NCBI RefSeq assembly: GCF_016806065.1
Contig: NZ_CP032407.1
Span: 72,911 to 136,910 of the forward strand
DNA: 64,000 nucleotides
Reading direction: 5' to 3'
DNA from: Rhizobium rosettiformans
GTDB taxonomy: Bacteria > Pseudomonadota > Alphaproteobacteria > Rhizobiales > Rhizobiaceae
Part shown: piece by piece, positions 1 to 18,647 of the stretch
Layout: each line of letters starts with the position of its first letter
Numbering within the stretch: the first letter of the stretch is position 1
Notes under the pieces: model-generated
The model's input: the letters and a program-made list of their open reading frames with translations, nothing else
The model's database searches: none
Told to the model about the DNA's origin: nothing
Position numbers and translations under genes: made by a program

Positions 1-1682
1 TTGCGGATGTGCTGTGTGGCCTCGATGCCGTCCATATTCGGCATCTGCATATCCATAAAGATGAGGTCGAAGTCTTCTGCCCTGGCGAGTTCCACTGCCT
101 CAAGGCCATCGTTGGCGACAACAACTGACTGCCCAAGATGACGCAAAAAGCCGATAGCCACTTGCTGATTAATCTTGTTGTCCTCCACAAGGAGCACCCG
201 CCGCCTCTCAAGGATCACATCGCGTCCACCAGACCGCGCGACGGAGATCGGCATTTCGGCTGGCTTGGCCGGCACCTCAAACCAGAACGTGCTGCCCACC
301 CCCTTGGCGCTTGTAACACCAATACGTCCGCCGAGTTGCTCGATGATTTCCTTGCAAATCGTCAGTCCGAGGCCCGTGCCTCCGTATTTGCGGCTTATCG
401 TTGCATCTACCTGTGAGAATGGCTTGAACAGCTTGCCGATGCCCTCAGGGTCAATGCCGATGCCAGTGTCGGTCACATCGAACCTGACATACGACCGGCC
501 TTCAACCACCTGCTCGCTCACCTTGAGCGTCACAACACCGTTTTGAGTAAACTTCAAAGCGTTGCTGAGAAGATTAAGCAGGACCTGCCGTAGTCGAGTG
601 GGATCAGATTCAATCGCAGGGAATGCGGGCGCCTCCGGATAGATCGCGCGCATCAAATTGCCGTTTTCACCAGCGCGATCTTCAAGAATATCAACAACAG
701 ACCCGACGAGCTCTGCGACCACCAGTGGCCGCATCTCCGTGGTCAGCTTGCCATGGTCGAGCTTGGCATAATCGAGGATCTCGTTGATCACCTCGAGCAG
801 AGCCTCGCCGGACTTTTGAATTGTTGTTAGACCTTGGGCAACGGCCCGGTCCGGTCCAGAAAGCTGCAAGAGTTCGGTTGTCCCGAGTATCGCGTTCAGC
901 GGCGTCCTGATTTCATGCCCCATAGTCGCCATGAACTGCGACTTGGAACGATTACCAGCTTCGGCGGCAAAATAGGACTTCTGAAGGTCTTGCGCCATGG
1001 CCTCCAAACCAAGACCTGCTGTGCGCACCGACGACAGTTGACGGCGCAGGGAAAAGATCAGGAAACCGACGCAGGCAACGAGAAGGGCGACAAGTACTGC
1101 CGATCTCAGTTGAAGCGACAGAAGCGCGGCACGAGCGTCAGCCCGGTCTGAGCTCACTGCATTGTTGGCGTAAATCAGGAGGCTTTCAGTGTTGGTAAGC
1201 AACGGCTCAAGAGACGCATCCATTCGCGCCAGATCTTCCGGTCCGAGAGTTCCACTGGCTAAATAGCGATCAAGAATCGGCTCAAGACTGCGGATTGTGT
1301 CAAAGATTTTCGCAATCGCTGGACCTGCATCCTGATCACCGCCGAACTTCCGATCGAACGCCCCCTCCTCCAGGATCTTCATTCGCGAGTAAAGAATATC
1401 ATATCCGTTCGATAAACCTTTAAGCGTTTCGGCCGACACCTCCGGTGCCATGGCAGATAGATGAACGGCCTCGTGCAACTTCCGTGTCTCTCGGTCGAGC
1501 TGATAAATTGACCACAATGCGTTTTCACGAATGCCATCCTGTAGGGAGGTATACCTGTGGGCAATCATCAGAAATATTGCGACCAGTCCAATCAGCAGCA
1601 AGGCTGCAAAGATCTGCAGGGCGACCGTCACCTTGCTGGCCGTGCGAAGAGCCTCAATGCTGACTGGCTGAATGGTCTGCAT
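1..1682 (-). CDS. Hybrid sensor histidine kinase, C-terminus cut by window edge
   Basis: Membrane histidine kinase that should autophosphorylate and pass phosphate to its own receiver domain. Reading from the ATG at 1682 there is a transmembrane helix (residues about 20-42), a periplasmic helical region (43-190), a second helix (192-212), a HisKA domain with the H-box GHEIRTP (His256, near 915-917), a HATPase domain with G-boxes DTGIG and GGTGLGL, and the start of a receiver domain (LLVEDNKINQQ and the phospho-acceptor motif FMDMQMPNMDG). The reading frame is still open at base 1, so the C-terminus is missing. The start codon overlaps the stop of the upstream secreted-protein gene by one base, which implies translational coupling and a shared function. 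The natural ligand cannot be told from sequence. Confidence 0.93.
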   Translation of the reverse strand, partial: MQTIQPVSIEALRTASKVTVALQIFAALLLIGLVAIFLMIAHRYTSLQDGIRENALWSIYQLDRETRKLHEAVHLSAMAPEVSAETLKGLSNGYDILYSRMKILEEGAFDRKFGGDQDAGPAIAKIFDTIRSLEPILDRYLASGTLGPEDLARMDASLEPLLTNTESLLIYANNAVSSDRADARAALLSLQLRSAVLVALLVACVGFLIFSLRRQLSSVRTAGLGLEAMAQDLQKSYFAAEAGNRSKSQFMATMGHEIRTPLNAILGTTELLQLSGPDRAVAQGLTTIQKSGEALLEVINEILDYAKLDHGKLTTEMRPLVVAELVGSVVDILEDRAGENGNLMRAIYPEAPAFPAIESDPTRLRQVLLNLLSNALKFTQNGVVTLKVSEQVVEGRSYVRFDVTDTGIGIDPEGIGKLFKPFSQVDATISRKYGGTGLGLTICKEIIEQLGGRIGVTSAKGVGSTFWFEVPAKPAEMPISVARSGGRDVILERRRVLLVEDNKINQQVAIGFLRHLGQSVVVANDGLEAVELARAEDFDLIFMDMQMPNMDGIEATQHIR

Positions 1683-2197
1683 CACTGAGTGACCTCGATT
1701 TCCTTGATCTGCCAGACCGATCGAGAGAAATACTTCTCATTGTAGAGAGAGCTGTCAGTGTCGAATGGATAGATGAGGAAGAGCGGCCCCTTGTCTCGAA
1801 TAGACATCAGCTCACCATTCATACGGGTGGCAAGGATTGTGTCGATCGTTGCGGCATCCTCCATTGGAACCACCGCGACGTAGTCGTTGAGCGCCTTCAC
1901 ATTAAGGGTCGTTCCCTTAGCGCCAGCCGCTTCCAGTACCGTTCGAAGAAAGGGTCCCGAAAACTCGATCTCGCCTTTTGTCCATGGCGTCTCCATCTTG
2001 CCCGAACGACCGGCGAGTGCCTCAAGCATGGCAAGATCAAATTGTGCTGTCTCTCCAGCATTGGGATTGGCGAGGTCCGATCCTTTGATCGTCAGTATTA
2101 CTTCGCCCTTGGGTGCATCCAGTGCCATTGTAGGAGCTGCCGCCAGGCTGATAAAAGCGGCGGCGGTGATGAGCAGTTTCAAGGCCATGGTGTTCAT
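1682..2197 (-). CDS. Secreted protein resembling a molybdopterin-binding oxidoreductase fold, coupled to the histidine kinase
   Basis: A 171-residue exported protein. Residues 1-26 form a signal peptide (hydrophobic LLITAAAFISLAAA, likely cleavage after TMA). The mature part (LTIKGSD, FSGPFLRTVLEAAGAK, LNDYVAVVPMEDA, GPLFLIYPFD, WQIKEIEV) has the pattern of the sulfite-oxidase/YedY-like molybdopterin-binding fold, but it is much shorter than true enzymes and no cofactor-ligating cysteine is visible. Its stop overlaps the start of the downstream hybrid kinase, so it is plausibly the periplasmic ligand-binding partner of that kinase. The fold assignment is by recollection of the family pattern and is moderately sure; the role as sensor partner is inference. 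Confidence 0.75.
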   Translation of the reverse strand: MNTMALKLLITAAAFISLAAAPTMALDAPKGEVILTIKGSDLANPNAGETAQFDLAMLEALAGRSGKMETPWTKGEIEFSGPFLRTVLEAAGAKGTTLNVKALNDYVAVVPMEDAATIDTILATRMNGELMSIRDKGPLFLIYPFDTDSSLYNEKYFSRSVWQIKEIEVTQ

Positions 2198-2423
2198 CTC
2201 GTATCCTCCAGTCTGAACGTTGAACGAACGCGCTGTGTCACGCTGTTAGGGTTAAAAGTGTCTGGCCGCGGCAGAGCATTTGCAAAACGGCACATGCTAC
2301 GAGAACCTTCGCCAAATACGGCTATTCGCAGAGATCGTTTCGAGAGACGCAAGTTTCGCGCGTTCGAGTTTTGTCGACATGAAGTGCATTGGAGCCCCCT
2401 CCCCACAACGGGAGTAAAATCAG

Positions 2424-3785
2424 TCATTTACCAGTTGGTGGTGCAGGCAGATCTTCATGATCGGCCGATGCGGCAACCAGCTGTGTTCCCTCGCCCAGTT
2501 GCTGGCGGTAGCGAGCGTACCTGTTCTTGCCGGAATTCTTTGCTGCATACATGGCGAAATCGGCGGCGCGAAGAATAGCGTCACTGTCCTTGCCATCCGA
2601 TGGATATGCCGAGATGCCAATCGACGCACTTACAGTGACGTCCTGTCTGCCAATGTCGATCGGTCGACATATTTCCGACAGCAACCGGCGTGCAAAATTG
2701 TCAGCGGTATCCGCGCCCTGATGGCGTTCGAGGATCATGGCAAACTCGTCGCCGCCGAGCCGAAAGGCCATCAACGAATCCAGCTTGCTTATCCTTCGAC
2801 CGATTGTCCGAAGGACTGCGTCGCCGGCATGATGACCAAACGTATCATTGACGGCCTTGAAGCCGTCGAGATCGAGTACCATCAAGCTGAATGGTTTAAC
2901 CGCTTGCGTAACATCTGCTCTGCGTCCCAGCTCTGCGTTGAACAGGTATCGATTTCCAAGACCTGTCATCTGGTCGATGTGGGCGGCGTTCCACAGATCA
3001 AGCTGGCGATTATGAGCTTCTGTCACATCTTGGAGGACACCCTGTATCACGGGCTCGCCTTGATGGTTCAGGCTGTACTGCCCAGCGCTTTTAAAGCGGC
3101 GCACCTGTCCAGAGGGATGGCGAAAATCAAACTCCTGCACCATGGGCTCAACACACAGCTCAGGATTCTTCGTGATAGCTTCGATACCGTGGCGGACATC
3201 CGCGGAAAGGGGCTCCAGTGCCATTTCCAATGTCACTGGAGCGCCGTGCGGCACCCCGTAGAGGTCGTACACCCGATCTGACCACAACAGTCGGCCGGTT
3301 CTAACTTCATAAGTCCAGGCACCAACGCCAGACAGCTCTTCAAGCTGTGCGAGCCATGCTGCGCGTCGTTCGGAGTCTTGTCTCAGGGCTACGAGTTGCT
3401 CTTCAAACGAGCGCCGAGCGGAGGCTCGAAAAAGCGCCACATCGTAAACTCGAGGACCCAGGTGGTTGCGCATCGAGATATTGACCAGAACCGGCGATGG
3501 CTCGGCATTTCCCTGCACCGTTAGTGCGACCTCGTGGCAGCGGCCTTCAATATGCAGAAGCGGAATGAGAACACTCTCAAGATAGAGCCGACTTGCGGTC
3601 GTAAACTTCCGGCTAATTCGCTCGCCCATTATCTCGCGTTCGGACGCGCCGGTCAGTCCGCCGAAACAGGCGTTGGCGCGCAGGATACAAAAGTTGGCGT
3701 CAACGACCACCAACGCACACGGGGCATCGTTCCAATCAACCTCGCCATTGTAGGCCTCAGAGATGAGAGTTTGCTGACCCGACAT
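2424..3785 (-). CDS. PAS-PAS diguanylate cyclase paired with an RsbQ-like hydrolase
   Basis: Cytoplasmic protein of 453 residues expected to make c-di-GMP from two GTP. It has an N-terminal PAS domain (about 15-125), a short coiled linker, a second PAS of the PAS_3 type (about 155-265, GVGAWTYEVRTG) and a GGDEF domain (275-435) with intact active site RLGGDEFAMIL. The inhibitory RxxD site is absent, so product inhibition may be missing. The start was taken as the ATG at 3785 rather than 3869, because the longer version would run through the end of the upstream gene and adds no recognisable domain. With this start it overlaps the hydrolase gene by 29 bases. In Bacillus the RsbQ hydrolase works through the PAS domain of RsbP; here the output would be c-di-GMP instead of a phosphatase. 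Confidence 0.92.
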   Translation of the reverse strand: MSGQQTLISEAYNGEVDWNDAPCALVVVDANFCILRANACFGGLTGASEREIMGERISRKFTTASRLYLESVLIPLLHIEGRCHEVALTVQGNAEPSPVLVNISMRNHLGPRVYDVALFRASARRSFEEQLVALRQDSERRAAWLAQLEELSGVGAWTYEVRTGRLLWSDRVYDLYGVPHGAPVTLEMALEPLSADVRHGIEAITKNPELCVEPMVQEFDFRHPSGQVRRFKSAGQYSLNHQGEPVIQGVLQDVTEAHNRQLDLWNAAHIDQMTGLGNRYLFNAELGRRADVTQAVKPFSLMVLDLDGFKAVNDTFGHHAGDAVLRTIGRRISKLDSLMAFRLGGDEFAMILERHQGADTADNFARRLLSEICRPIDIGRQDVTVSASIGISAYPSDGKDSDAILRAADFAMYAAKNSGKNRYARYRQQLGEGTQLVAASADHEDLPAPPTGK

Positions 3786-4578
3786 ATCGTTCGATCTCTT
3801 GGATGACCTCGGCCGGATGACTGACGTGTGGGCAATGTCCCGTTGCCTTGAGTTGAACAAAGGTCGCATTCGGCATTTGGTCGGCTACATATTTGCCAAC
3901 CTCGACCGGAGCGATGACGTCCTCGGCGCACTGCAAGACCAGCGCCGGTGTGTAAGCCTTTGCCAGGTCTGATCGGTTGTCGCTCCAGAAGGTCAAAGCC
4001 GCGAAATGCCTGGCGATCTCAGGGTTGGTTCTGCAGAAACTTTCGCGCAGCGTGTCCGTCAGTTCTGGACGGTCGGAGTTACCCATGATTGCGGGTGCCA
4101 TTTGCCCTGCCCAACCGAGATAGTTGGACTGCATGGCGTCGATCAGCCCTTCGATATCCTGTTTCTCGAATCCCCCGCGATAGCGATCACCATCGTTGAG
4201 GTAACAAGCGGATGGCCCAATAAGAACTAGCTGACTGAACAGTTCAGGCCGTTTGGCTGCTGCCAGGACCCCGATCATCGAACTGACGGAATGACCAACG
4301 AAAGCTGCCGGTTCAGTGCAACAATGTTCAATTACTTCAATGCAATCATCTGCATAGTCTGTGAGGGCCTGATAGTGCTTGTACGAGAAATGGCTAGCAT
4401 CTGAGTTGCCGAAACCCATGAGATCAAACAGGACGATCTGGTGCTTGTTCTGGAATGCAGGCGCAACATCCTTCCACATCGTCTGATCGCAACCCAACCC
4501 ATGAGCGAAGATTATCGGGCTACGAGCCGTACCGAAGGACTTTATCGCATACTTGTAGGTTGGATCTCGCTGTCGCAT
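3757..4578 (-). CDS. RsbQ-like alpha/beta hydrolase
   Basis: A 273-residue alpha/beta hydrolase of the RsbQ/KAI2/D14 group. Distinctive RsbQ-like stretches are GCDQTMWKDVAPAF, VGHSVSSMIGVLA, KRPELFSQLVLIGPSACYL and KATGHCPHVSHP. The catalytic triad is visible as Ser97 in GHSVS, Asp220 in CAEDVIAP and His248 in TGHCPH, closely matching the spacing of Bacillus RsbQ (Ser96, Asp219, His247). Length is normal. RsbQ is required by the PAS-domain protein RsbP during energy stress; plant relatives are butenolide receptors. Overlap with the downstream PAS-GGDEF gene implies co-translation and probable partnership. The small-molecule ligand is unknown. Family assignment is firm, the signalling role is inference. 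Confidence 0.93.
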   Translation of the reverse strand: MRQRDPTYKYAIKSFGTARSPIIFAHGLGCDQTMWKDVAPAFQNKHQIVLFDLMGFGNSDASHFSYKHYQALTDYADDCIEVIEHCCTEPAAFVGHSVSSMIGVLAAAKRPELFSQLVLIGPSACYLNDGDRYRGGFEKQDIEGLIDAMQSNYLGWAGQMAPAIMGNSDRPELTDTLRESFCRTNPEIARHFAALTFWSDNRSDLAKAYTPALVLQCAEDVIAPVEVGKYVADQMPNATFVQLKATGHCPHVSHPAEVIQEIERYVGSANSHL

Positions 4579-4641
4579 AGATATCTCGTATTTTCACATA
4601 TCTGAAATTATGGATGTTCATTGTTTAGGAAGAGTAAAGGC

Positions 4642-5739
4642 TCACCCTGAACTCACAATCGGGGATTGACGAACATCATATTCGGAGGCGCTTTTTGGGG
4701 AACCAAACAAGAAACCTTGGCCAACGTCACAGTTCATCTCGCGCAGAACTGACGCCGTCTGTGTATCCTCGATACCTTCAGCGATGACCTTCAATCCAAG
4801 GCTCTTGCAGAGCTGCACCAACGCGATGACGATGGTACGATTTTCCGGGTGTTCTGGTAGGCATTTAATGAATGAACGATCAATCTTTACGTAGTCGATG
4901 GGATAGTCCCGGAGATGAGACAGGGACGCATACCCAGTGCCGAAATCATCTAGGGCAATCTTACAACCTGCCCTTTTTAGGGCCCGGATGTTTTCGAGAA
5001 CGACATCTTCGCCCTCAGCAAGGATTACGGTCTCAGTAATCTCGATCATCAAAGAACCTGGCGCAATGTCGTAGCGATCTAGCTCCGTCAATATGTGGTC
5101 GGCGTAGGATCGTTCACGAATACAGACCTCAGACACGTTGATGCCGACGACACCATAGTCGAGACCTAGCTCGGTCCACTGCTGCATTTGCATCAGTGTC
5201 TTGGTCAAAATTTGTTCGCTGATTGCCCTGGCACAGTCAGGGTCTGAAAACGCGGGCCAGAACTCCGCGGGCATCACAGTCAAGCCGTCTGGGTCAACAA
5301 TCCTTGCCAGGGCCTCAAATCCACACCGGCGCCCAGTGATCAAGTCGATCTCTTCCTGGAAGAAAGGAAAAAGACGGTTGGCCGCGACCGCATTGAGAAC
5401 CCTAGCAATTGCAGCCAATCTAAGTGTCAGACCGCTCTCACTTCGCTCTCCAAAAAACTCGTATGTACCTCGAACAGATCTCTTGACTTCACGCAGAGCA
5501 ACATCTGCGGACTTGAGGAGGTCGTTGACGGTCCAGCCTTCTGCCGCAGATGTACAACATCCAATTGAACAGGTGACAGAAAGATTGTGGCCGCTGAAGC
5601 CCGCGGGACGCTTAACGGTCTTAAGGATCCTCTCGCAGAGCCGCGCCAGTCGAAACTGATCGTTGAAGGGAAGAAGAAGCGCGAATTCATCTCCGCCCAG
5701 CCTGAAGAGCTCGCCCTTGGCAGTCGGGATCTCTTTCAA
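4642..5739 (-). CDS. 5'-truncated GGDEF-EAL protein; EAL domain intact
   Basis: Encodes the C-terminal two thirds of a GGDEF domain (RLGGDEFALLL) followed by a full EAL phosphodiesterase domain with the expected residues: FEALAR, NVSEV, EITETVI, DDFGTGYASL, KIDRSF, AEGIED and QGFLFG. The EAL domain should hydrolyse c-di-GMP. The first available start is TTG at 5739, inside the GGDEF domain. In the same frame, upstream codons to about 5866 still read GGDEF sequence (LLLIDIDGFKKIN, DTFGHEVGDQ) but contain no ATG, GTG or TTG, and the domain's opening DPLTGLPNR segment is missing. The coding sequence abuts the stop of the upstream GGDEF-EAL gene in another frame. A deletion probably removed the sensor part, so this may be a decaying gene or a short EAL protein. 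Confidence 0.75.
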   Translation of the reverse strand: MKEIPTAKGELFRLGGDEFALLLPFNDQFRLARLCERILKTVKRPAGFSGHNLSVTCSIGCCTSAAEGWTVNDLLKSADVALREVKRSVRGTYEFFGERSESGLTLRLAAIARVLNAVAANRLFPFFQEEIDLITGRRCGFEALARIVDPDGLTVMPAEFWPAFSDPDCARAISEQILTKTLMQMQQWTELGLDYGVVGINVSEVCIRERSYADHILTELDRYDIAPGSLMIEITETVILAEGEDVVLENIRALKRAGCKIALDDFGTGYASLSHLRDYPIDYVKIDRSFIKCLPEHPENRTIVIALVQLCKSLGLKVIAEGIEDTQTASVLREMNCDVGQGFLFGSPKSASEYDVRQSPIVSSG

Positions 5740-5861
5740 TCGATCAGCAACGATCTTTACTAACTGATCGCCGACTTCATGCCCAAAGGTATCATTGATT
5801 TTTTTGAAGCCATCAATATCGATCAGTAGCAGAGATGGCTTCTGGTATTTCCCAACTTGTG

Positions 5862-8800
5862 CTAAATCGCCTCTGGCTTGTGAATGTGGAAGCCTTGCGC
5901 GTAGTCCACGCCAATGGAAGCGAGTTTTGAGAGTATCTCGGCACTCTCAACGTATTCCGCCACAGTCTTAATACCCAGAACGCGCGCAACATCTACAAAA
6001 CAACGAACCGCCACATCGTTAAGCGGATCATTCGTCAGGTCACGAATAAACTGTCCATCGATCTTCAGGAAATCAACGGGGAAGCGCTTCAGATAGCCGA
6101 AGGAAGACGCGCCCGCACCAAAGTCGTCGAGCGCGACTCGGACGCCTCTGCTTCGAACCTGATCGATAAATGTCGTAGCATCCGCCAAATTGGTAATGGC
6201 TGCCGTCTCGGTAATTTCAAAACACAGCCGCCGACACACGGCATATCCAGCTTCGTCCAGGATCTCCATGGCTTGCCTGTGAAAAGACCGATCCCCGACA
6301 GAATGCCCGGACAGATTGACGCTAATCGTCTCCGTTTCGGTTGCCTCTGGAAGGCGAGCGATCCAATCGATCGCGTGTGTCAGCACCCACTGATCCAGAC
6401 GCGTCGCAAGATTGAAGCGTTCAGCAGACGGCAAAAACGCTGAGGGTGAAATCAAACTTCCGTCCTCATCTTTCATGCGAATCAAAAGCTCGACATGACG
6501 ACCAGCCGGCGTCCCGCTAATGGGCCGAATATTCTGTGCGAAAAGCACAAACTGGTCATCGTCAAGCGCCCGCTCGATGCGCGATGCCCATCGCATCTCG
6601 CCGGAACGGGCAGCTATGGCCTGATCGGTGTTAACCCAGACATGGACCCGGTTCCGACCGCCTTCCTTTGCGGCGTAACAAGCGTTGTCCGCGGCCTGTA
6701 GGATCGAAGCAAGGCTCTGCATCGTTCCATCGATCGGCACAAGTCCTATACTTGTGCCGACTCGAAACCGTTTGTCGTCGTGGACAAAACGGAAGTCACG
6801 CATTCGGTCACACATCGCCTGTGCGATACGCGTCGCGTTCGCGGCGGGGCAGGCTTCGAGAATAACCCCGAATTCATCTCCTCCCAAGCGGGCAAGGGTA
6901 TCGCCCGAACGGATTGTGTCGGCAAGCAACTTGCCAACCTGCTTGAGCAGATCGTCGCCGACAGCGTGGCCGCAGGAGTCATTTACGATCTTGAACTGAT
7001 CGAGATCGATATAAAGCAAGACGTTCGAAGAGCTGTCAAAGCGGGACTTTTCAAAAACAGTTTGCAACCTTCTATCGAATTCGGCCCTGTTAATCAGTCC
7101 AGTCAGCGGATCATGGCTTGCCCGGTAACGCATTTCCCGCGATAGACGCCGTTGTTCACTGACGTCATGAAAAACCAGAACTGCGCCAAGCACGTCGCCT
7201 TCGGAGTTCCTGATCGGTGCTGCTGAATCCTCGATGCTAAATTCCTGACCGTCGCGAGCGATCAGCATCGTATTTTCGTCAAGGCCGACGATATCAAGGC
7301 TCCGCAGACACGCAGTAATCGGATCTGGCGCGCGTTGGCGGGTTTCCTCATTGATGATATCAAATACCACGCTGCTCGGTTGCCCGCTGGCTTCGGCCGC
7401 CGACCAGCCGGTCATTCGTTCGGCAACCGGGTTCAGCCACTGGACGATACCCAAAGCGTCAGTCGTGATGACGGCGTCACCGATCGAATGAAGGGTTACG
7501 CGCATAAGCTCGTGCTGATCTTCAAGTTCGAGCGCCATTTTTCGTTGAGCCGACACATCCCAGGCTGCGCCTATCAATCGCAATGGTTGACCGCACACGT
7601 CCGAGACTACCTTCGCCGAGATCCGGATGTAGTGTGTCGAATGGTCAGGCCTGATGATCCGATATTCTTCGTTGAGTGGGCGGTTTTCTCTGATCGCTAA
7701 ATGAGCGGCTTGCTCAATTCGCTCATAGTCATCCTGGTGGATATGCCGGCGCCACAGATCAGAAACGCGCTCGCCACTGCGCTCGGGCAAACCAAACAAG
7801 CGGTACATCCAAGGATCCCATGTCACGACATTCATGACCAGATCATAGTCCCAGATGCCTATGCCGCCGCTATCGGTGGCAATCGACATGCGCTCCGCAA
7901 GGAGCCGCCGCTCCTCCTCCTCCGCCTTTCGCCGAGAAACATCAATATGGGTGCCGATCATCCGGACCGGACTTCCATCATCGTTGCGCGCAACGACCCT
8001 ACCGCGATCAAGAATCCACACCCAGCTGCCGTCCTTACGGCGCATGCGAAACTCTTCCTCGAAATACGGGGTCTCGCCCGCAATATGATCGCGATCGGCA
8101 GCTTGTGCCCGTTCCCGATCGTCCGGGTGGACCAGCGCCAGCCAATTGTCGATTGCGTTACCAAACTCTTCCCGCGAGTAACCGAGAAGCTCACACCATA
8201 TGTCAGAATAATAAGTTCGACCGGTCCGCAAGTCAGCATCCCAGATACCGATACCCCCGTTCTCGGTTGCAGCAGCCATCTGCTCGTTGAGCCGTTCCAA
8301 TCTGGCACGTTGTTCAATACGCTCGGAGATATCTTGAAATGCACCGCTTATACGGACTGGCTTTTCGCCGTCGAATTCAACCGCACCAACGGCGCGGACC
8401 CAAATTCGCTCCCCACTCGCCTTGATGAAAGGGAGTTCAAGATCCCAGCCTTCGCCGGTGGCCATACCCTTTTCTACCGCATTCTGAATGATTGGACGGG
8501 CTTCTGGCGCATAATAGGCAATTGCTTCATCCATCGTCGGCCTATAGCCCGGTTCGACGCCATGTATTTGGCAAGTCTCGTCGGACCAGATGATATCACC
8601 TGTTGCCAGATCGACCTCCCAACCGCCAACGCCCGCGACCTTTCCGGTACGTTCAAGGAAAATGCGGCTTTTGCGAAGTGCATCTTCCTGAATTTTCCGA
8701 AGCGTGATGTCCTGATGCGTACCAAACATCCACTGCGGTTTGCCGTCGGGTGTCCTGGTGATAACTTTGCCGCGATCGTGTACCCAAACCCAGTGGCCAT

Positions 8801-10337
8801 CTTTATGGCGCATGCGCGCCTCGAAGTCGTAGGCATCCGACTTGCCATCAAAGTGCGCATGCAAAGCCTCTCCTGACGATTGCAAATCGTCGGGGTGCGC
8901 ATGTTTCATCCATGTATCAATCGATACGGGCTGCATTTCAGAAAGGGTGTAGCCAATGATTTCGGCCCACCGCTCGTTGAACCGGGTTTCGCCGGTCTGA
9001 ACGTTCCATTCCCAAGTGCCAGCCTGCGTGCCCTCGATGATGTAGCCAAGGCGCCGCTTTTCTTCAGCCAGCCTTCGCTCTGCCAGCCGCCGGAGTGTGA
9101 CATCTTCCATGATTGCCATCGTACGAACTGGCCGACGTTCAGAATCACGTTCGAGCGTCGCCGACAGCAACACGTCAATGATCTCTCCCCGGCTGCTGAC
9201 CAACTGATATTCGACCAGCTCGCAATGACCGGTTCTAAAGAACTCAGGAAGAACGGCACGTGCCTTCAGCCGCGAAGCCTCCGTCAGGAATTCGGACGAA
9301 AAACGGCCTATTACCTCCTCACGATGATACCCTAACACCTCAAGCCACCGATCACTTACGGTGAGAAGGCGCCCGCTCGCATCAATTGAATGCATGATGG
9401 CTGGAGTCGTTTCATACAGTCTTCGAACACGTTGTTGGTTTTCGAACGCTGATGCCCGAGCCTTCACAAGGTCGCCAATATCGCGAATTATTGCCGTCAT
9501 GCCCAGGAAACTGCCTAACCCTGAAACGACCTGGCCAAAAGATATGGACACGGGAAACGACGTCCCATCCGATCGAAGGCCTGAACTCTCGACTAATTTG
9601 CCCGTCCCCTTTTCCAGCCATGCGGTGACATCGAGCAACCTTTTGTCTTCAAGCACAGCGGGCAAGATCCGTTCAATCGACTGTCCAATGAGATCATCAG
9701 CAGTGCAAGCGAACAGGCGCTCTGCCGCGTCATTACAGTGCTGGATTCTTCCGTCGAGACCCATCGTGACAACGGCATCAGGGCTACTTTTCAGTATTGC
9801 AGCGGCTCTCGCCTCGACGAGACGCAGTTCCTTCTCAGATTGAACCGCAACGCGGGCTTCAAGTGCGCGTGCGGCTGCGTAACCAAGATGGTTAAGCACA
9901 TCTCGTTGGTGCTGCGTCAGAGTGCGTGGTTCGCGATCGATCACACATAAGGACCCGACGTATTGACCATTGGTGAGGGCCAGAGGAACGCCGGCGTAGA
10001 ACCGAATTCCAGGATCACCGTTGACCAGCGGATTAGCGGAGAACCTCTGGTCCTTGGTAGCGTCCTCTACTTCCATGAGCGCGCCTTGCTGCATCGCGTG
10101 CGCACAGAATGAGACATCCCGGGGGGTCTCAGTGACACCCGGCAGTCCAACGCTCGCCTTGAACCACTGTCGGTTTTCTTCCACCAGGCTGATCAATGAA
10201 ATAGGAGTACAGCAAACCAGTGCTGCCGCCTTGACTAGCGCATCGAACTCCGGTTCAGGCTTTGTATCCAAGACTTGGAGGTCCCGCAGTGCCTGCAACC
10301 GCTTTTGCTCTTCCATAAAAGCAGGGACCTGGGTCAA
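5862..10337 (-). CDS. GAF-PAS(7)-GGDEF-EAL c-di-GMP signalling protein
   Basis: A very large cytoplasmic sensor of 1491 residues with no transmembrane segment. An N-terminal GAF domain (about 25-160) is followed by seven PAS domains, several of the PAS_3 type with WEW or GIWD motifs and PAC-like ends, then GGDEF (about 1070-1230, ARLGGDEFGVILE) and EAL (about 1235-1485). The EAL domain carries ELLIRM in place of EAL, plus NLSGHSV, EITETAAI, DDFGAGASSF, FLKIDGQF and DYAQGFHIHKP, so both cyclase and phosphodiesterase activity are possible; the inhibitory RxxD site was not looked for in detail. The start at 10337 puts the GAF domain near the N-terminus. It is the first gene of a run of same-strand c-di-GMP genes. 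Signals sensed are unknown. Confidence 0.94.
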   Translation of the reverse strand: MTQVPAFMEEQKRLQALRDLQVLDTKPEPEFDALVKAAALVCCTPISLISLVEENRQWFKASVGLPGVTETPRDVSFCAHAMQQGALMEVEDATKDQRFSANPLVNGDPGIRFYAGVPLALTNGQYVGSLCVIDREPRTLTQHQRDVLNHLGYAAARALEARVAVQSEKELRLVEARAAAILKSSPDAVVTMGLDGRIQHCNDAAERLFACTADDLIGQSIERILPAVLEDKRLLDVTAWLEKGTGKLVESSGLRSDGTSFPVSISFGQVVSGLGSFLGMTAIIRDIGDLVKARASAFENQQRVRRLYETTPAIMHSIDASGRLLTVSDRWLEVLGYHREEVIGRFSSEFLTEASRLKARAVLPEFFRTGHCELVEYQLVSSRGEIIDVLLSATLERDSERRPVRTMAIMEDVTLRRLAERRLAEEKRRLGYIIEGTQAGTWEWNVQTGETRFNERWAEIIGYTLSEMQPVSIDTWMKHAHPDDLQSSGEALHAHFDGKSDAYDFEARMRHKDGHWVWVHDRGKVITRTPDGKPQWMFGTHQDITLRKIQEDALRKSRIFLERTGKVAGVGGWEVDLATGDIIWSDETCQIHGVEPGYRPTMDEAIAYYAPEARPIIQNAVEKGMATGEGWDLELPFIKASGERIWVRAVGAVEFDGEKPVRISGAFQDISERIEQRARLERLNEQMAAATENGGIGIWDADLRTGRTYYSDIWCELLGYSREEFGNAIDNWLALVHPDDRERAQAADRDHIAGETPYFEEEFRMRRKDGSWVWILDRGRVVARNDDGSPVRMIGTHIDVSRRKAEEEERRLLAERMSIATDSGGIGIWDYDLVMNVVTWDPWMYRLFGLPERSGERVSDLWRRHIHQDDYERIEQAAHLAIRENRPLNEEYRIIRPDHSTHYIRISAKVVSDVCGQPLRLIGAAWDVSAQRKMALELEDQHELMRVTLHSIGDAVITTDALGIVQWLNPVAERMTGWSAAEASGQPSSVVFDIINEETRQRAPDPITACLRSLDIVGLDENTMLIARDGQEFSIEDSAAPIRNSEGDVLGAVLVFHDVSEQRRLSREMRYRASHDPLTGLINRAEFDRRLQTVFEKSRFDSSSNVLLYIDLDQFKIVNDSCGHAVGDDLLKQVGKLLADTIRSGDTLARLGGDEFGVILEACPAANATRIAQAMCDRMRDFRFVHDDKRFRVGTSIGLVPIDGTMQSLASILQAADNACYAAKEGGRNRVHVWVNTDQAIAARSGEMRWASRIERALDDDQFVLFAQNIRPISGTPAGRHVELLIRMKDEDGSLISPSAFLPSAERFNLATRLDQWVLTHAIDWIARLPEATETETISVNLSGHSVGDRSFHRQAMEILDEAGYAVCRRLCFEITETAAITNLADATTFIDQVRSRGVRVALDDFGAGASSFGYLKRFPVDFLKIDGQFIRDLTNDPLNDVAVRCFVDVARVLGIKTVAEYVESAEILSKLASIGVDYAQGFHIHKPEAI

Positions 10338-10602
10338 TTCTACAATCCTAAGCTGCCGTTACACTTGACGAAAAGTTAGCGCGTCCCAAGACTTAGAACA
10401 GGGGCCCTAACATCGATAGAGTTTCTCTAAACCAAATATAACGCAGCGACGGAAAGCACGCTATGTCCCTTGGCGCGATAACAAGAATGATGACTTCACT
10501 TTCTGGATCAGCGCAAATGAGACAGAAATCTCTTAATTGGAAGAAAAGATGATTTTCGGCTCATCGTAGCTCATTCAAAGGAAGTGAAAATGAGCTAAAA
10601 GT

Positions 10603-10749
10603 TTGGGCCCAGACATCGCGACCGAGAAGGCGATCAAGGACATCCGCCGCGCCGCGCACAAGCATCATTCACCAGAGGAGAAAATCCGGATCGTCGAGGA
10701 AGGCCTGCGTGGCGAAAACAGCATCGCCGCGATCTGCCGCCGTGAGGGA
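10603..10749 (+). pseudogene. Fragment of IS3-family transposase OrfA
   Basis: About 49 codons read [16 protein letters not shown], then [14 protein letters not shown] and AAICRREG, which is the start of the helix-turn-helix OrfA of IS3-family elements common in Rhizobiales. The similarity stops abruptly at about 10749, where the sequence becomes chemoreceptor sequence on the other strand. No OrfB, terminal repeats or rest of OrfA are present, so this is a dead remnant. Confidence 0.7.
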
Positions 10750-10990
10750 CCTCGGTCGAGGAATTCTGGATCAGCCCCTTGATCTCCTTAGCAGCACTGG
10801 CCGAACGTTGGGCGAGTTCGCGCACTTCCTGGGCAACGACGGCAAAGCCTTTGCCGGCTTCACCGGCACGCGCTGCCTCAATCCCGGCATTCAGCGCTAG
10901 GAGATTGGTCTGGAAGGCAATCCCATCAATTACACCGATGATATTGAAGAGCTGCGGCGAACTGTCCTCGACACGGCGCACATCGCTCGC
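10750..10990 (-). pseudogene. Chemoreceptor signalling-tip fragment
   Basis: On the minus strand this stretch encodes only the hairpin tip of a methyl-accepting chemotaxis protein: [54 protein letters not shown]. It matches the tip of the intact receptor just downstream (11270-13066) with few substitutions (DGIAF for DEIAF). No sensor, membrane or adaptation region is attached, and one side is joined to transposase sequence. It is a rearranged remnant, probably of a receptor related to the neighbour. Confidence 0.75.
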
Positions 10991-11269
10991 CTCGCGAGTT
11001 CTTAAACCGCCATTCAGAAACCTGGTCCTGTCCGGTTTTTAAGGGGCAACTCCAGCGACAATTAGAACCAGTCGGGACGGCATCCGTTCTGAAGAAGACA
11101 CCTTATGTAAGCGCATTAACACATACGAAACCAAGTATGGGATATTAATTTCAACAGAAAAAATCGAAAAAACAATAAGATATACGATTACCGAGTTTCG
11201 CCCTGTTGATCACTTCTCTGTATACTTTTCGCTCACTTCACACACCTCTCGTCATCAAAGGACACAACG

Positions 11270-13066
11270 ATGTTTGGAATTTCGAGCGGCACCCGTGCCC
11301 AACTGGAGTCTCTGGAAGTCGTTACTGCCAACATCATGATTGCAGATGAGAAGCTCAACATCCGCTACATGAATACGGCGGTAAAGGAACTGCTGAAGGA
11401 AGCGGAGAGTGACCTGAAGAAGGAGCTACCCCGTTTCGAGTTCTCTAAGCTGATCGGTAGCAATATCGACATCTTCCACAAGAACCCAGGTCATCAGCGC
11501 AATATGCTGAGCAGCCTGAAGAACCAGCACAGAGCGACAATCTGGGTCGGCCACAGAGCCTTCGATCTGATCGTGACGCCTCTGAAAACAGGCGCAAAAA
11601 CCACTGGCTTCGTGGTGGAGTGGGCGGATGCAAAGGAAAGGCTCCAGAACCTCGACTTCAAGGGACAGCTTCAGGCGATTGGCAAGGCACAGGCCGCGAT
11701 CGAGTTCACCCCCTCCGGCGAGGTCGTCACGGCGAACGATAATTTCCTCAACGCAACCGGCTACACACTCGCGGAGATCAAGGGCAAGTCGCATCGCATG
11801 TTTCTGGAGCAGGGCGCTAGCGGGGACATCGCGTTTTCGACCCTGTGGCCACAGCTCAGGGCAAATCAAGCGTTCATCGGCGACATCGTTCGCTATGGCA
11901 AGGGCGGTCGCCAGCTATTCCTCAACGCGTCCTACAACCCGATCACCGATGAAAAGGGCAATGTCATCAAGGTTGTGAAGTTCGCGACCGACGTGAGCGA
12001 CCGGGTGCATGCGGTCAGCACCGTTGGTGCAGCCCTGAGCAAACTTGCTCAAGGCGATGTCAGTTTTACGATCGACAAGCCCTTCGCGGCTGACTTCGAG
12101 CCTCTTAGAACCAACCTCAACGAAGCCGTCACTCAGCTTGCCAGCACGCTCGCCGCGGTTGCCCTCTCTACTGATCAGATTGACGGCGGAACACGCGAAA
12201 TCAGTTCCAGCGCAGAGGACCTTTCGAGGCGCACCGAGCAGCAGGCAGCGTCCCTTGAAGAGACGGCTGCCGCACTCGACCAGATCACGGTCAATGTCAA
12301 AAATGCGTCCAAGCGCGCCGAGGAAGCCCGTCACGCCACCCAGGCCGCCGACACAAGCGCGACGCGCTCCGGTCAGATCGTGGCCGAAGCTGTCGGCGCG
12401 ATGGCGCGCATCGAGCAGTCCTCGAACCAGATCTCCAATATCATTGGCGTGATTGACGAGATCGCCTTTCAGACCAACCTGCTGGCGCTCAATGCTGGCG
12501 TCGAAGCCGCTCGCGCCGGCGAAGCCGGCAAGGGCTTTGCCGTCGTTGCCCAGGAAGTCCGAGAGCTTGCCCAACGGTCCGCCAGTGCTGCGAAGGAGAT
12601 CAAGGAGCTGATCCGCAACTCCTCCGAAGAGGTCAAGAACGGCGTCAAGCTTGTCAGCGAGACCGGTGAGGCACTGAAGACGATCCAGAACAACATCGTT
12701 GCGGTCAACGACCACATGCAGGCGATTGCGAGCTCGGCACGGGAGCAGGCAACCGGTCTTTCTGAGGTGAACACGGCCGTCAACCAGATGGACCAGGTGA
12801 CCCAGCAGAATGCCGCGATGGTCGAGGAATCGAATGCGGCAAGCGCCACGCTTGCGAACGAGACGCAGCGGCTGCGCCAGTTCATCGCACGGTTCACATT
12901 GGGCAGGCACTATACTGCGCAGAAGACCTCTTCCTCGTCACCGCACAGCCCCGCTCGGGCGCCAGCTCCAACTGCACCTACCATCGAATCCAGGCCAGCG
13001 TCTGGACGGTCAGCCGCGATGTATGGAAACGCTGCTCTGAAACAAGAAGAGTGGCAGCAATTCTAA
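11270..13066 (+). CDS. Soluble PAS-PAS methyl-accepting chemotaxis protein
   Basis: A 598-residue chemoreceptor without a transmembrane segment, so it should sense a cytoplasmic cue such as redox or energy state. Two PAS domains (about 10-115 and 135-245, the second with a clear PAC end, KFATDVSDR) are followed by a HAMP-like linker (about 245-300) and the long coiled-coil signalling domain (about 300-545) with tip [20 protein letters not shown] and flanking methylation-type helices. The last residues are EEWQQF, which fits the xWxxF tether for CheR/CheB, so this receptor can probably recruit the adaptation enzymes. An AAAGGA ribosome site lies before the ATG at 11270. It resembles the Aer/BdlA-like receptors of rhizobia. 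Confidence 0.94.
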
Positions 13067-13206
13067 GCGATCAAATCACTACGATTACGCAGTTGGCGGA
13101 CCAAGCGCTTGTTATAGCTGACTGAACATGTCCTGTTTAAAGTCCATGGGACGCAGATCTCGACTGGCGCGAGTGTGCTGCATGGAGAGAGGGAATTCGG
13201 GTCATA

Positions 13207-13222
13207 TCGTGTCGGGACACGA
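13207..13222. repeat. Perfect 7-bp palindrome
   Basis: TCGTGTC and GACACGA flank two bases. The site lies about 140 bases downstream of the chemoreceptor stop. It has no T-run, so it is more like a protein-binding palindrome than an intrinsic terminator. Confidence 0.4.
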
Positions 13223-13690
13223 CACGACTCGTAGCGCATCTTGCCGAGAAAATTCTACTTTTGAAGCCCGTTAATTGGGTAAGCCCCCGGTGAATGAAGT
13301 CCGGCGCCCCAAAAACGATGTGGAGTGCCCTCCTCAGTTGCAGAGCGTGAAAGTCACGAAAGGATTATTTGGTCATTGTGACTAAGCGGGAGAAAGGTCT
13401 TTGCCGGTGTCGACCATCGAATTGTTCTATGATTTTAATGCAATACCGAAAAGAACGCTGGCTGGGCTGCAAATGAAGCCAAAGGCTGATGGTGAATCCA
13501 TATCCCAGGCTCTAAATATTGAAGTATTTTGATCATTTCATCTACAAGTTGGTGGCATACGTGTAAAAAAACGTTGACACTCCCAAAGCTTAGATGAAAG
13601 TCACGCACCTCTGCTTCAACTCAGGACATCGCCGCCGCAAGTCTCTGAACAAGCATCGTGACGCCGAGCTAGGTCGCCCATCAATTGGGC

Positions 13691-13761
13691 CCGAGGGGAC
13701 AGGTTCGCCGCCGCAGTTGTTTTCTGGGGGAAATACCATCCTGAAAACCCTGTCCCCTCGG
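13691..13761. repeat. 13-bp perfect inverted repeat with 45-base loop
   Basis: CCGAGGGGACAGG at 13691-13703 is perfectly complementary to CCTGTCCCCTCGG at 13749-13761. The loop is 45 bases long. It stands about 65 bases before the LuxR-type regulator and could form a stable stem in its leader RNA, or be the remnant of a small mobile repeat. Confidence 0.6.
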
Positions 13762-13827
13762 AACAGGCTCACCATGACACTTCTACAAAAATATACCATC
13801 ACCGACTTTTAGGGGGCATGCGAGAAA

Positions 13828-14496
13828 ATGACCATTTCGGGCTCGGATACTGGGAGCATTGCTTCTATCGCGTCGTCTCAAAAAAGAGAGGATGCTATGC
13901 TGGAACTGTGCGAGCGAATAGACGTCATAGCCCGGCGATGGAATGCGTCGGCTTTGGGTGTTTACGAACACGTCCAGATCGAGGATGGAGAGGACAACAG
14001 ACTGGTCTACGGCTGGGACGAAGAGGATGATGCTGCAAGTCTTGTTCTAGATCCCTCCACCAGTTTTGCACTCGACGTTCAGTGGCGGCGCTTGCTGGGC
14101 CATGCGGAAGTCATCTTTGACGGGCCGTCGGTTGTTCGTCTGGGTGACAATGTAGCGCTCCGCTATGTGGCTCATCCATCGATGTCCACCGCCACTTATG
14201 TCGTGGTTTCCTTGCACAGCGATGCAGAGACTGCCTCGAAATGCTCCCGTGAGCTGGATGCAGCGATGACGACCACACAATTTTCCATCGATCCTAAGCC
14301 CGTGAGCTTGACCAAGCGGGAACTGGAGATCGCACGGTGGATTTGCGAGGGAAAAACATCGTCTGAGATAGCAGTGATCCTGAGCCTGTCGGAGCATACG
14401 GTCAACGACTACATTCGCTCCGGAATGAAGAAGATGGGTGCAACCAACCGACTAAGCTTTATCGCGAAGACCATACGCCGAGGGCTCGTGGCATAG
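13828..14496 (+). CDS. LuxR-family transcriptional regulator
   Basis: A 222-residue protein with a C-terminal LuxR/GerE helix-turn-helix (about 155-215): LTKRELEIARWICEGKTSSE, LSLSEHTVNDYIR and KMGATNRL are diagnostic. The N-terminal 150 residues have the length of an autoinducer- or ligand-binding domain but lack a pattern I can assign, so it need not be a quorum-sensing regulator. Initiation could be at 13828 or at the ATG 23 codons later (MLELCER). It is a single gene transcribed away from the chemoreceptor and towards the convergent MASE1 cyclase gene. Confidence 0.88.
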   Translation: MTISGSDTGSIASIASSQKREDAMLELCERIDVIARRWNASALGVYEHVQIEDGEDNRLVYGWDEEDDAASLVLDPSTSFALDVQWRRLLGHAEVIFDGPSVVRLGDNVALRYVAHPSMSTATYVVVSLHSDAETASKCSRELDAAMTTTQFSIDPKPVSLTKRELEIARWICEGKTSSEIAVILSLSEHTVNDYIRSGMKKMGATNRLSFIAKTIRRGLVA

Positions 14497-14624
14497 CGGG
14501 TTACAAACTTCTGGCAGAGATGGTTGGACAGCTGATGAGTTTGCCTCCGTGACTGCTTATTGAATTTCGGGTCGGCTGGTCTGCTTCGACCATCCCGGAT
14601 AGCCCGGCACAATGCTGCGACTAA

Positions 14625-16766
14625 TTACATTCTACGCAGCATCCCATCGCCAGAGCCATTCCAACATGCAATCCGGTCGCGTCCGCCTGACTTCGCAGTG
14701 TAAAGCGCTGTGTCCGCGCGATATATAAGCTCTGCTGCCGTTGACGCCTTTCCATCATGGACAAGTGCAGCCACACCGGCACTGATAGTGACGTGCATTT
14801 TTTCGCTCTTAGCGTGGGCAATTGCGAGGCGATTGACGGCCAATCTCACATGCTCGGCGAAAACAAACGCTCCCGACTGCTCCGTCTCGGGCAGTACGAT
14901 ACACATCTCTTCTCCGCCGTAGCGCGCGACAAAGTCAGCCGGCCGCTTGATGGTGGCTTCAAGAACTCTAGCAACATTCTGCAGGTAAGCGTCTCCGGCC
15001 TGGTGTCCATAATGATCGTTGTAAGCCTTGAAGCGATCGACATCGATCATGATCAGACTGATTGGTTTGCGGTTACGTCTGCACCTGGAGATCTCTTGTT
15101 CAATTCTCTCATCGAAAGACCGCCTGTTGAATAGTCCTGTCAGGCCGTCAGTGTCGGCAAGCAGCTCGAGTTTTTTGGCCATACCACGCAGTTCGAAATA
15201 CGCCTTTTTCATATCGGTAACATCAGAAACCACAATGGTTGTATTACCGTTGGCGACGGGATTTGATCGAATACGTAGCCATGTGCCGTTGTATAACTCC
15301 AGCTCATCGTCTGCGCCCTCTTTGAGCTTGCGCATGGCAATCTTTGGATCGAGACCTGGAGCCTCGCCCTTCTCCTTAGAAAGTGCCAGTATCGAAGGAA
15401 GATAGGCACCAGGATTCCTGAGTTCGCCAGTCAGCGGGAATAAGGATTTGTATTTCTCATTGCAGAATATGATGAAGCCGTCTGAGTTTATAACAGCCAG
15501 ACCGCCAGACATTTCTGAAAGGATTAGATCCAGCCGCTCCTTGCCCGCCTTCAATTCCAGCTCAAGCGACCTCCGCTCCATGATATCTCTTGTGACGCCT
15601 GCCATACCGACGACACGTCCCGTTGCTGAGTGCAGCGGCACTTTCGACGTCTCGAACCAGCGTTCATTACCCCGAGCATCCAGAACGCGTTCAACCTTGT
15701 TGTTGACCGGGTTGTTACTGAACATCACGCCCTGCTCTTCGATGAAAAGCTCCTTGGCGCGCTCGCGGTTCGTGAAATCAAAGTCAGTCTTGCCGAGGAC
15801 TTCTGTCGTCGTACGGAGCCCGACATGCCTTGCGACATTCAGATTTGCTGAGACGATTTCACTTCGCAAGTTCTTGATATAGTGAAAATCCGGGGCCTGA
15901 GAAAGCGCGGACATAAGTAGCGTCCGTTCTCCAAGCAAACATGCAATTGCAAAGCTTGTGATCGAGCTAGTCGCAGTAAAGAGCTGCAGGGCATATAGTT
16001 TGATCCGAAGTGACTCTTGAATCAGTGCTATCGGCCCAAGCCCGTACATGGTCGACCACAGTCCGATCATGGCCGTAAGAAACACGGAGAAAGCCGCTCC
16101 AGGAAATCCGAGGCAAAACGTCGCAAGAATAATTGCAGGGAAGGCGAGGAAAAGCAGCGGAAGAGTAGACTGTAGAAAGACCGCTGCAAGTGCGGTGACA
16201 AGAACGACGAGAACGAATAATGTACGAAGCAGGACCCGTCGGTGGAACAGGTCAGCTAAGTCCCCCCTGTTCAAAATCAACAGCAAGGGTGTGACTGTGA
16301 TCAGGCCGAGCGCATCCGCCGCATACCAATTCGCAAAGACCGAAATGAAGCTTGCTCCGGTCATCTGATACAATGCGAAGGCTGCAATTCCAGCCGATAG
16401 CAAGCAGGCGGGGCCCATAGAGACCGCGGTGAGTATGAACATTGGTCTCGGGCGCCGGAAATCACGCTCTTTCGTCAAGCCGGTCACGAGCAAAGCACAG
16501 ATAAGAACTTCAATCATGTTTACGGCAGAAAGGGTTGCGGCTGTGAGCAGGCCGTCGCCAGATTGGAGATTGGCCAGGATGTTTCCAAGCCACGCTGCCG
16601 GGAACAGGAAAATCCAAGATGATCGCTCTTCTTTGAGCACGGCGGCAAGCAGCACCGCATTGGAAATCCATATTGCGGCAATCCGTTCAGTGCCGCGTGT
16701 CAACTCGATGCCCGCCAGAGCAGTGACAAAGACACAAATGCCGACTACAGCCCCGCCCGCGCGCAC
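14625..16766 (-). CDS. MASE1-PAS-PAS diguanylate cyclase, start region possibly frameshifted
   Basis: A 713-residue membrane diguanylate cyclase. The first 285 residues are a multi-helix MASE1 sensor (AAIWISNAVLLAAVLKE, FANWYAADALGLITVTPLLL), followed by two PAS domains (about 290-400 and 410-520) and a GGDEF domain (about 535-700). The active site reads RYGGEEMCIVL, with Met where Phe is usual, and the RxxD inhibitory site is present (RPAD). The track-like start is GTG at 16766, without a good ribosome site. A better start, ATG at 16810 preceded by GAGG, begins MSEPTSQSVDKFYGQCARAG but is one base out of frame: adding one G to the G-run at 16751-16754 would join the frames into a natural N-terminus. 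Confidence 0.88.
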   Translation of the reverse strand: MRAGGAVVGICVFVTALAGIELTRGTERIAAIWISNAVLLAAVLKEERSSWIFLFPAAWLGNILANLQSGDGLLTAATLSAVNMIEVLICALLVTGLTKERDFRRPRPMFILTAVSMGPACLLSAGIAAFALYQMTGASFISVFANWYAADALGLITVTPLLLILNRGDLADLFHRRVLLRTLFVLVVLVTALAAVFLQSTLPLLFLAFPAIILATFCLGFPGAAFSVFLTAMIGLWSTMYGLGPIALIQESLRIKLYALQLFTATSSITSFAIACLLGERTLLMSALSQAPDFHYIKNLRSEIVSANLNVARHVGLRTTTEVLGKTDFDFTNRERAKELFIEEQGVMFSNNPVNNKVERVLDARGNERWFETSKVPLHSATGRVVGMAGVTRDIMERRSLELELKAGKERLDLILSEMSGGLAVINSDGFIIFCNEKYKSLFPLTGELRNPGAYLPSILALSKEKGEAPGLDPKIAMRKLKEGADDELELYNGTWLRIRSNPVANGNTTIVVSDVTDMKKAYFELRGMAKKLELLADTDGLTGLFNRRSFDERIEQEISRCRRNRKPISLIMIDVDRFKAYNDHYGHQAGDAYLQNVARVLEATIKRPADFVARYGGEEMCIVLPETEQSGAFVFAEHVRLAVNRLAIAHAKSEKMHVTISAGVAALVHDGKASTAAELIYRADTALYTAKSGGRDRIACWNGSGDGMLRRM

Positions 16767-17207
16767 TGCCCATAAAACTTATCGACGGATTGACTGGTAG
16801 GCTCACTCATTTCGACCTCATTTGAATGAGCCCCAGACTGGCATATTGCAGTGAAGCATGAATTAAAGCGGTGGCACCGAATTCAGGCTTGCGTGCTCTG
16901 TTCGACGAATTGTCTAGAATACGGCCGGTTACTCGGGGTCGTCTCCGACCAAATTGAAGTCGCCGGCGGCCTTGTGCGGCTTGAGAAGCGTGACGATGTT
17001 GCGCACCAAACTCCAGAAGCTGTTGGCCTCCCGTTCGGCTCTAACTCACGGGCAATCTTCAGGGTCTTGATTGAGCAGAGGTCCCACCGCAGGACGAACG
17101 GCAGAATAGCGGCATCCCGCAACCTCAATTGCATGATGCACACCAAACGTCACACCAAGCACTGTTCAAGCCGCTGCTGATCCCTGACCGCGTTCCATAA
17201 CCGGAAA
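16767..17207. other. Intergenic stretch, no gene recognised
   Basis: About 440 bases between the start of the MASE1 cyclase gene and the stop of the fliG-like gene. Short open frames on both strands show no recognisable protein sequence. The part next to 16810 holds the ribosome site and probable promoter of the cyclase gene. Confidence 0.4.
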
Positions 17208-18206: not shown

Positions 18207-18385
18207 ATCTGTTCCTCCGCAGTAGTCTCAACGAAACAGGTCTTCGGAAAATTGTGCCTGCCGAACGACGTCAAAGAGCGAAAATACCTCTACCAAGAAA
18301 CATCTTGCAGATTGCGCGAGCCTTGAGAGTTCGGAGTGACTGCCTCTCTAAACCAGGAAACCCCCGGTGCATTAGCGTTGCGAAA

Positions 18386-18410
18386 CAAAAAACCCGCCAT
18401 ACGGCGGGCT
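18386..18410 (-). terminator. Intrinsic terminator (second of two)
   Basis: CCCGCC and GGCGGG at 18393-18408 with loop ATAC form a perfect stem. On the minus strand it is followed by six T. It would stop transcripts coming from the HU side before fliG. Confidence 0.8.
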
Positions 18411-18495
18411 GTAAGGGAAGTTTCGTCCCTCGAAGGAACTCCGCGGGTTCAATGCCCGGTTCATTTTTCTGACGCTAACGCGGACGTCGTTACAC

Positions 18496-18534: not shown

Positions 18535-18647
18535 GAGCTGAGTTTGCTTAAGCAGACGATAGCTCCAAGAGGTTACCACGAAGTTACATCCGCTACGGTA
18601 CGGAACGTATGGAAGCTGAACCCATGAAGCTGCCTGCCGGCTGCAGC

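Follow-up and report, generated by a model that had tools for sequence, protein, structure and literature searches.

The hydrolase and cyclase genes of the locus

The window, i.e., the whole 64,000-nucleotide stretch of Rhizobium rosettiformans DNA analysed here, carries two overlapping minus-strand genes near its beginning. The upstream gene (3757..4578, minus strand) encodes a 273-residue RsbQ-like alpha/beta hydrolase with the catalytic residues Ser97-Asp220-His248, identified from its reading frame, domain and structure searches, and alignment. The downstream gene (2424..3785, minus strand) encodes a 453-residue partner with the layout PAS1-helix-PAS2-helix-GGDEF (reading frame, Pfam, and AlphaFold2 model). 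The 29-base overlap given in the initial annotation agrees with both reading frames (3757..3785, minus strand). An upstream alternative start of the partner gene at 3869 (481 residues) is possible; the ATG at 3785 is retained in R. metallidurans and is also the start of a 93% identical protein (P0121).

The hydrolase is closer to RsbQ than to the plant receptors. Its top match among solved structures is Bacillus subtilis RsbQ (293.8 bits over residues 11-265), followed by a protein deposited as 'Olei00960' (211 bits) and by KAI2/D14-type proteins (185.7 bits or less). It shares family and triad with plant KAI2 and D14 (up to 186 bits) and may likewise act as a receptor-enzyme, but it stands more than 100 bits further from them than from RsbQ. 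The partners of KAI2 and D14 in plants are F-box and SMXL proteins, not PAS proteins. The triad, described earlier as intact, is indeed present, and its columns are filled in 65 of 66 aligned family members, the remaining row being gapped. Position 28, equated with KAI2 Phe26 through its spacing from the catalytic serine, is Leu in the window; this position is L or M in all five loci of the window's close lineage, and F (67), Y (7), or a gap (2) in 76 others. Phe26 of KAI2 divides the main pocket from a second pocket, according to the available text of PMC3548789. In the alignment, position 194 is R in 54 of 61 others and A in the window lineage. Among 50,697 phage records, no match to the hydrolase was found at E ≤ 1e-20.

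The partner has the expected features of a working cyclase. As annotated, its GGDEF domain (2520..2984, minus strand) is intact, scoring 139.8 bits in Pfam, and residues D305, D307, N313, D314, G344, G345, E347, and F348 are invariant in 36 aligned sequences. Judged from these residues, the protein carries the active-site motif and the metal and guanine residues expected in an active diguanylate cyclase. The RxxD inhibitory site is absent at its usual place, which we take to be residues 335-338, read here as L-D-S-L; this site is dispensable for cyclase activity. Two PAS domains had also been proposed, and two PAS folds appear in the AlphaFold2 model (36 sequences; mean pLDDT 87.9, pTM 0.63), while Pfam passes PAS1 alone, narrowly (23.2 against a cut-off of 22.6; PAS2 13.6 against 25.6). 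The modelled layout is PAS1 at about residues 14-121 (3423..3746, minus strand), a 31-residue helix at 122-152 (3330..3422, minus strand), PAS2 at about 153-253 (3027..3329, minus strand), a helix at 255-269, and the GGDEF domain. In structure comparison, PAS-GGDEF-EAL, phytochrome-GGDEF, and DosP chains align along much of the partner, with large rmsd because the domains sit differently.

PAS1 is of the RsbP type by profile, alignment, and model. It scores 51.9 bits (E 1.3e-14) against an RsbP-type profile built from 12 other partners, and no DIT motif closes it; instead, the strand continues into ARRSFEEQL, and a DIT-like D-V-T, recognized by sequence reading, follows PAS2 only. Class residues C10, R53, Y55, L56, P62, E72, and P86 are present, in a numbering deduced from residue spacing and not from the RsbP sequence. 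The class residues H/Y59, L48, and L13 are replaced in window PAS1 by V59, F48, and V13. Position 59 is V or I in 5/5 lineage loci, and H (62), Y (7), Q (4), K (1), R (1), or V (1) in 76 others, the lone V59 outside the close lineage belonging to L167. Position 48 is F in four of the five lineage loci and L in 64 of 76 others; position 13 is L in 27 and V in 13 of 53 others. Directly after PAS1, near the start of the 31-residue helix, lies the family motif R-x-x-[YF]-E-x-x-L; among 58 partners, the R is kept in 58, the E in 55, and the L in 54. The motif stands where other PAS domains often have DIT and is a candidate contact or lever.

Conserved pairing and natural fusions

Nadezhdin, Brody and Price (2011; PMC3183031) described 45 neighbouring pairs of RsbQ and RsbP-type PAS proteins with phosphatase, kinase, or diguanylate cyclase outputs. 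In the available text of that paper, extra PAS domains occur in 5 of the 45 proteins, the 75% consensus of the RsbP-PAS class describes tendencies and sets no membership requirement, and the input of the module at its first description is termed mysterious. As read from its sequence, the window pair has the published features of this module, i.e., an RsbQ homologue immediately upstream, an N-terminal RsbP-type PAS domain without DIT, and a GGDEF output. Compared with RsbQ-RsbP of B. subtilis, which supplies the closest solved hydrolase (294 bits), gene order and PAS type are the same, but the window output is GGDEF instead of a PPM phosphatase and a second PAS domain is present. The initial annotation had proposed a sensor pair in which a small hydrophobic ligand or its hydrolysis product is read by PAS and reported as c-di-GMP. 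The RsbQ-RsbP-type pair, the cyclase output, and the conserved adjacency stand. The module kind, its cyclase form, and both signalling models were published in 2011, and the window copy adds one member.

The neighbourhood is conserved far beyond chance. A survey of other genomes had been proposed together with the initial annotation. Of 76 homologues with 39% or more identity to the window hydrolase, 72 (57/59 plus 15/17) have an RsbP-type PAS directly after the hydrolase, its start lying between -11 and +89 nt relative to the hydrolase stop codon. The pair thereby withstands the refuting condition of the initial annotation that concerns the neighbourhood. Of 13 loci below this identity cut-off, L097 alone has a PAS partner, L096 is a fusion, and the other 11 lack one. 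The survey comprised 65 non-redundant loci and 24 more, 16 of which were named plasmid records (16 of at least 60 listed, with possible strain overlap with the sampled genomes). Of the partners themselves, 44 served as seeds of the PAS profile; in a split test with a profile from 12 partners of the phylum draw, PAS was detected in 40 of another 44 loci, among them the window. Four loci at or above 39% identity are without an adjacent PAS partner. The hydrolase is shortened in L120 and L121, and in L120 a PAS lies 1.4 kb further on, beyond an ORF that by eye resembles part of a transposase. L153 and L161, at 42 and 47% identity, are without such a partner and count against our preferred explanation. 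On a Deinococcus taeanensis plasmid (L169, 1-3262), the order is inverted, with a PAS S-box gene coming first and running 20 nt into the beginning of a gene for a hydrolase of 35% identity.

Hydrolase homologues are patchily distributed. At E ≤ 1e-30, they occur in 20 of 398 phylum, 21 of 297 family, and 26 of 397 order genomes, and at E ≤ 1e-40 in 8 of 289 class genomes and 3 of 274 genomes of the class of G322, the source genome being counted wherever it was drawn. At these cut-offs, none was found in three genomes of the same genus. The outputs of 58 partners include HisKA (45), HATPase (45), GGDEF (10), EAL (5), receiver (10), and HWE kinase (2) domains; kinases thus predominate, and the cyclase output is the less common form (45/58 HisKA versus 10/58 GGDEF). 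Distances in the hydrolase and PAS trees correlate (mirror-tree r 0.85; 0 of 2,000 shuffles as high), which we set aside as contact evidence because joint inheritance alone yields it.

Hydrolase and output domains also occur on one chain. In L096 (G267, 6083-7831), hydrolase, PAS, and GGDEF share one 582-residue frame, and the same genome has an unfused pair (L095). A search with the L096 protein found at least 309 matches, of which 120 were listed. Among those listed are single chains joining the hydrolase to GGDEF (P0001-P0006), to a SpoIIE phosphatase (P0009), and to kinases (ten chains in the range P0017-P0042, plus P0054, which also has a receiver). Eleven hydrolase-bearing chains were inspected, and the PAS domain was aligned for eight. 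In the hydrolase tree, P0001 falls beside L095, P0006 beside L165, and P0054 beside L167, with P0017, P0022, P0027, and P0036 together and P0009 apart, a placement that reads as at least four separate origins of fused chains. Gene fusion is a classical sign of proteins working in contact, and the single-chain hydrolase-PAS-output proteins thus support direct hydrolase-PAS contact. A model of a fusion protein was rejected as a stand-in for the complex, as its pTM of 0.50 fixes no hydrolase-PAS arrangement. Also among the matches listed, the RsbQ-like hydrolase is joined to HATPase_c_2 (P0040, P0045, P0058, and P0059), a type present in anti-sigma kinases, and to a response regulator with a DNA-binding domain (P0048 and P0053); both kinds fall outside the three published output classes. 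The available text of PMC3183031 makes no mention of single-chain hydrolase-PAS-output proteins, which is no proof that they are unpublished.

Signalling readings and the window's cyclase lineage

The most likely mode of action is that of RsbQ-RsbP, a cyclase replacing the phosphatase, and we consider it probable that the pair forms a bipartite RsbQ-PAS sensing module with c-di-GMP output in which the hydrolase cap contacts PAS1. For the ligand, contact surface, output, and sign, we infer the following. The hydrolase would be a soluble receptor-enzyme that binds a small hydrophobic molecule in its pocket and perhaps slowly hydrolyses it. Its cap region would touch the F-alpha helix of PAS1 and the start of the next helix in a PAS-PAS-GGDEF dimer, and the change would travel along the 31-residue helix, PAS2, and the next helix to GGDEF pairing and thereby to c-di-GMP synthesis. 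By analogy with RsbQ, the cyclase would more likely depend on the hydrolase for its activation than be inhibited by it. In B. subtilis, the RsbP PAS domain is necessary and sufficient for interaction with RsbQ, F55A breaks this interaction, and Y59A is null with contact disrupted (PMC3183031, available text). In a published AlphaFold2 model, PAS domains and linkers together form a hybrid interface at which RsbQ sits (PMC12143880, 2025), and perception of butenolides by B. subtilis RsbQ was reported by Melville et al. (2024), as cited in PMC13192556 and PMC12112387. In our alignment of 81 pairs, covariation peaks between hydrolase cap residues 130-200 and PAS1 F-alpha residues 63-80 (1 of 1,014 sliding blocks as high or higher; 0 to 24 across eleven variants and subsamples), which is only suggestive because the blocks overlap. 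A compensating pair of hydrolase residue 194 and PAS residue 72 (position 59) was rejected, ranking 1,635 of 36,210 in the same 81 pairs.

The window belongs to a distinct cyclase lineage. In the hydrolase tree, it is one of seven rows, all cyclases, that group together (97/92). The close five, i.e., the window, R. metallidurans (L008), L122 (L009), BEIJ3 (L010), and L138 (L011), are separate from a kinase-type group of 42 rows, which includes every one of the 21 rows labelled with the same family. The other two cyclase rows, L123 and L124, retain H at PAS 59 and F at hydrolase 28. The outputs of L154 and L162 are GGDEF as well, which enlarges a second cyclase group of the tree. The pair stays together in all five lineage loci with differing upstream neighbours, those of L010 and L011 being partly alike. 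Between the window and R. metallidurans, dN/dS is about 0.14 and 0.19 for the two genes, indicating purifying selection on both. Compared with the module of 2011, this lineage has V or I (V in the window) instead of H or Y at PAS 59 and L or M (L in the window) instead of F or Y at hydrolase 28. Due to these changed pocket and contact residues, the ligand and interface of B. subtilis or plants cannot be assumed to apply here as they stand, and an unchanged B. subtilis interface or ligand is a weaker claim than membership of the module.

Two models of 2011 compete for how the signal passes, one in which the hydrolysis product is handed to the PAS domain and one in which the hydrolase signals as a receptor through contact (PMC3183031, available text). 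Under the first (Model 1 of Nadezhdin et al.), PAS1 would be the sensor and take up the product in its cavity. The nearly universal triad fits this reading, and triad substitutions in RsbQ are null, but an intact triad is equally expected of D14/KAI2-type receptor-enzymes, no PAS ligand was known in 2011, and the single-chain fusions fit contact signalling equally well (substitutions and ligand from PMC3183031, available text). We regard product delivery as possible but doubtful, and contact as at least as likely. The V or I at PAS 59 and the F48 of four lineage loci count against the contact model, Y59A being null in B. subtilis. The V or I at PAS 59 could mean that the link has decayed in the window lineage, so that the cyclase obeys PAS2, which adjoins the GGDEF domain with its DIT-like end, and the hydrolase is a passenger. 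H or Y stands at this position in 69 of 76 others, yet the genes are adjacent in all five lineage loci, the one pair measured is under purifying selection, most other class residues and R-x-x-[YF]-E-x-x-L are retained, and L167, outside the lineage, also has V59; such decay is unlikely.

In a further reading, an ordinary esterase stands beside a cyclase by chance, with no functional tie. Hydrolase and GGDEF genes are common, and the source genome alone has 51 GGDEF matches, but a PAS partner in 72 of 76 closer homologues against 1 of 13 more distant ones, together with the natural fusions, refutes chance as a general account and makes it highly improbable for the window. The contact-based RsbQ-PAS-cyclase module thus remains our preferred reading. 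As a compact Gram-negative copy with a simple c-di-GMP readout and single-chain relatives, it renders the question of contact or product directly testable, and it bears on the path by which the plant karrikin and strigolactone receptor may have arisen from a hydrolase of the RsbQ type.

Plasmid setting and chemotaxis receptor genes

The contig that includes the window is a repABC plasmid of 136,910 bp with repC, and the pair of R. metallidurans follows a repABC locus (Pfam ParA-type AAA_31, RepB, and RP-C). Window positions 2325-4638 align with L008 at 88.6% over 2,317 nt, and a stretch left of the window (C3:68478-70982) matches, at 82.8%, the L008 genes for a kinase and an integrase situated beyond its pair. 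A two-gene cassette, with the pair and a receptor stub alone common to R. metallidurans in the first 16 kb, was withdrawn, as this kinase-integrase stretch is common too. The plasmids differ upstream of the pair and in the receptor-gene stretch; further matches fall on repC, on receptor genes at other sites, and on a second stretch resembling an integrase. A phage-integrase-family gene lies near the module on both plasmids (L142 8473-9060 and L008 11909-12811) and may have served to move the segment.

A chemotaxis receptor gene follows the pair in R. metallidurans, a difference from the module of 2011. The complete gene (L008 8184-9878) encodes PAS-HAMP-MCPsignal by Pfam and lies between the two aligned stretches; alignment to it identifies a stub in the window (2325..2389, minus strand) as the first 22 codons of this PAS-type receptor gene. 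Its remainder is replaced by a cluster of molybdopterin-binding, hybrid kinase, and HD-phosphohydrolase genes (window 1-2197 plus L142 11300-15107), and the identical three-gene order recurs in a plasmid stretch of Agrobacterium pusense (L146) in which no hydrolase pair was seen. A receptor gene or fragment accompanies 5/5 close-lineage loci (L010 and L011 being one context) versus 2/60 other non-redundant loci, and Fisher's test on nearly these counts (2/59 used) gives 2.8e-6; L123 and L124 are among the loci without one. The source genome has 38 receptor matches, so that chance alone would place one in about 9% of stretches of this kind. The association with the close lineage was spotted after the fact and is a lead towards motility. 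A review (PMC10860530, available text) reports much weaker promotion of R. leguminosarum swarming by extracts of strigolactone-deficient moss than by wild-type extracts. No NodA match was found in the source genome or in the control genomes, and a promoter scan saw 1 site where 1.5 were expected.

A bolder reading would join these observations in a plasmid chemosensory unit, ancestrally of three genes (RsbQ-like hydrolase, PAS-PAS-cyclase, and PAS-type receptor). Pocket (Phe28 to Leu/Met) and PAS 59 contact (H/Y to V/I) would have been re-tuned together, and a ligand other than that of B. subtilis RsbQ would set c-di-GMP and thereby rhizosphere motility. We offer this as speculation that is rather improbable as a whole.

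Several further signalling genes lie near the module in this and other replicons. On an Eleftheria terrae plasmid (L167, 1-4833), genes for CheA, a receptor, and a response regulator stand directly upstream of an RsbQ-PAS-kinase pair with V59, and in the MAG BEIJ3 a protoglobin chemotaxis receptor gene lies near the module (L010 6557-7921). Directly upstream of the window hydrolase is a GGDEF-EAL gene (4642-5739, minus strand) that looks truncated, the first 23 GGDEF-profile positions being absent; it has no match beside the module in L008. The surrounding plasmid region is a dense signalling stretch, with five GGDEF hits (2520-20347) and three MCP hits (to 22350) in about 20 kb, including an MCP fragment at 10634-10981.
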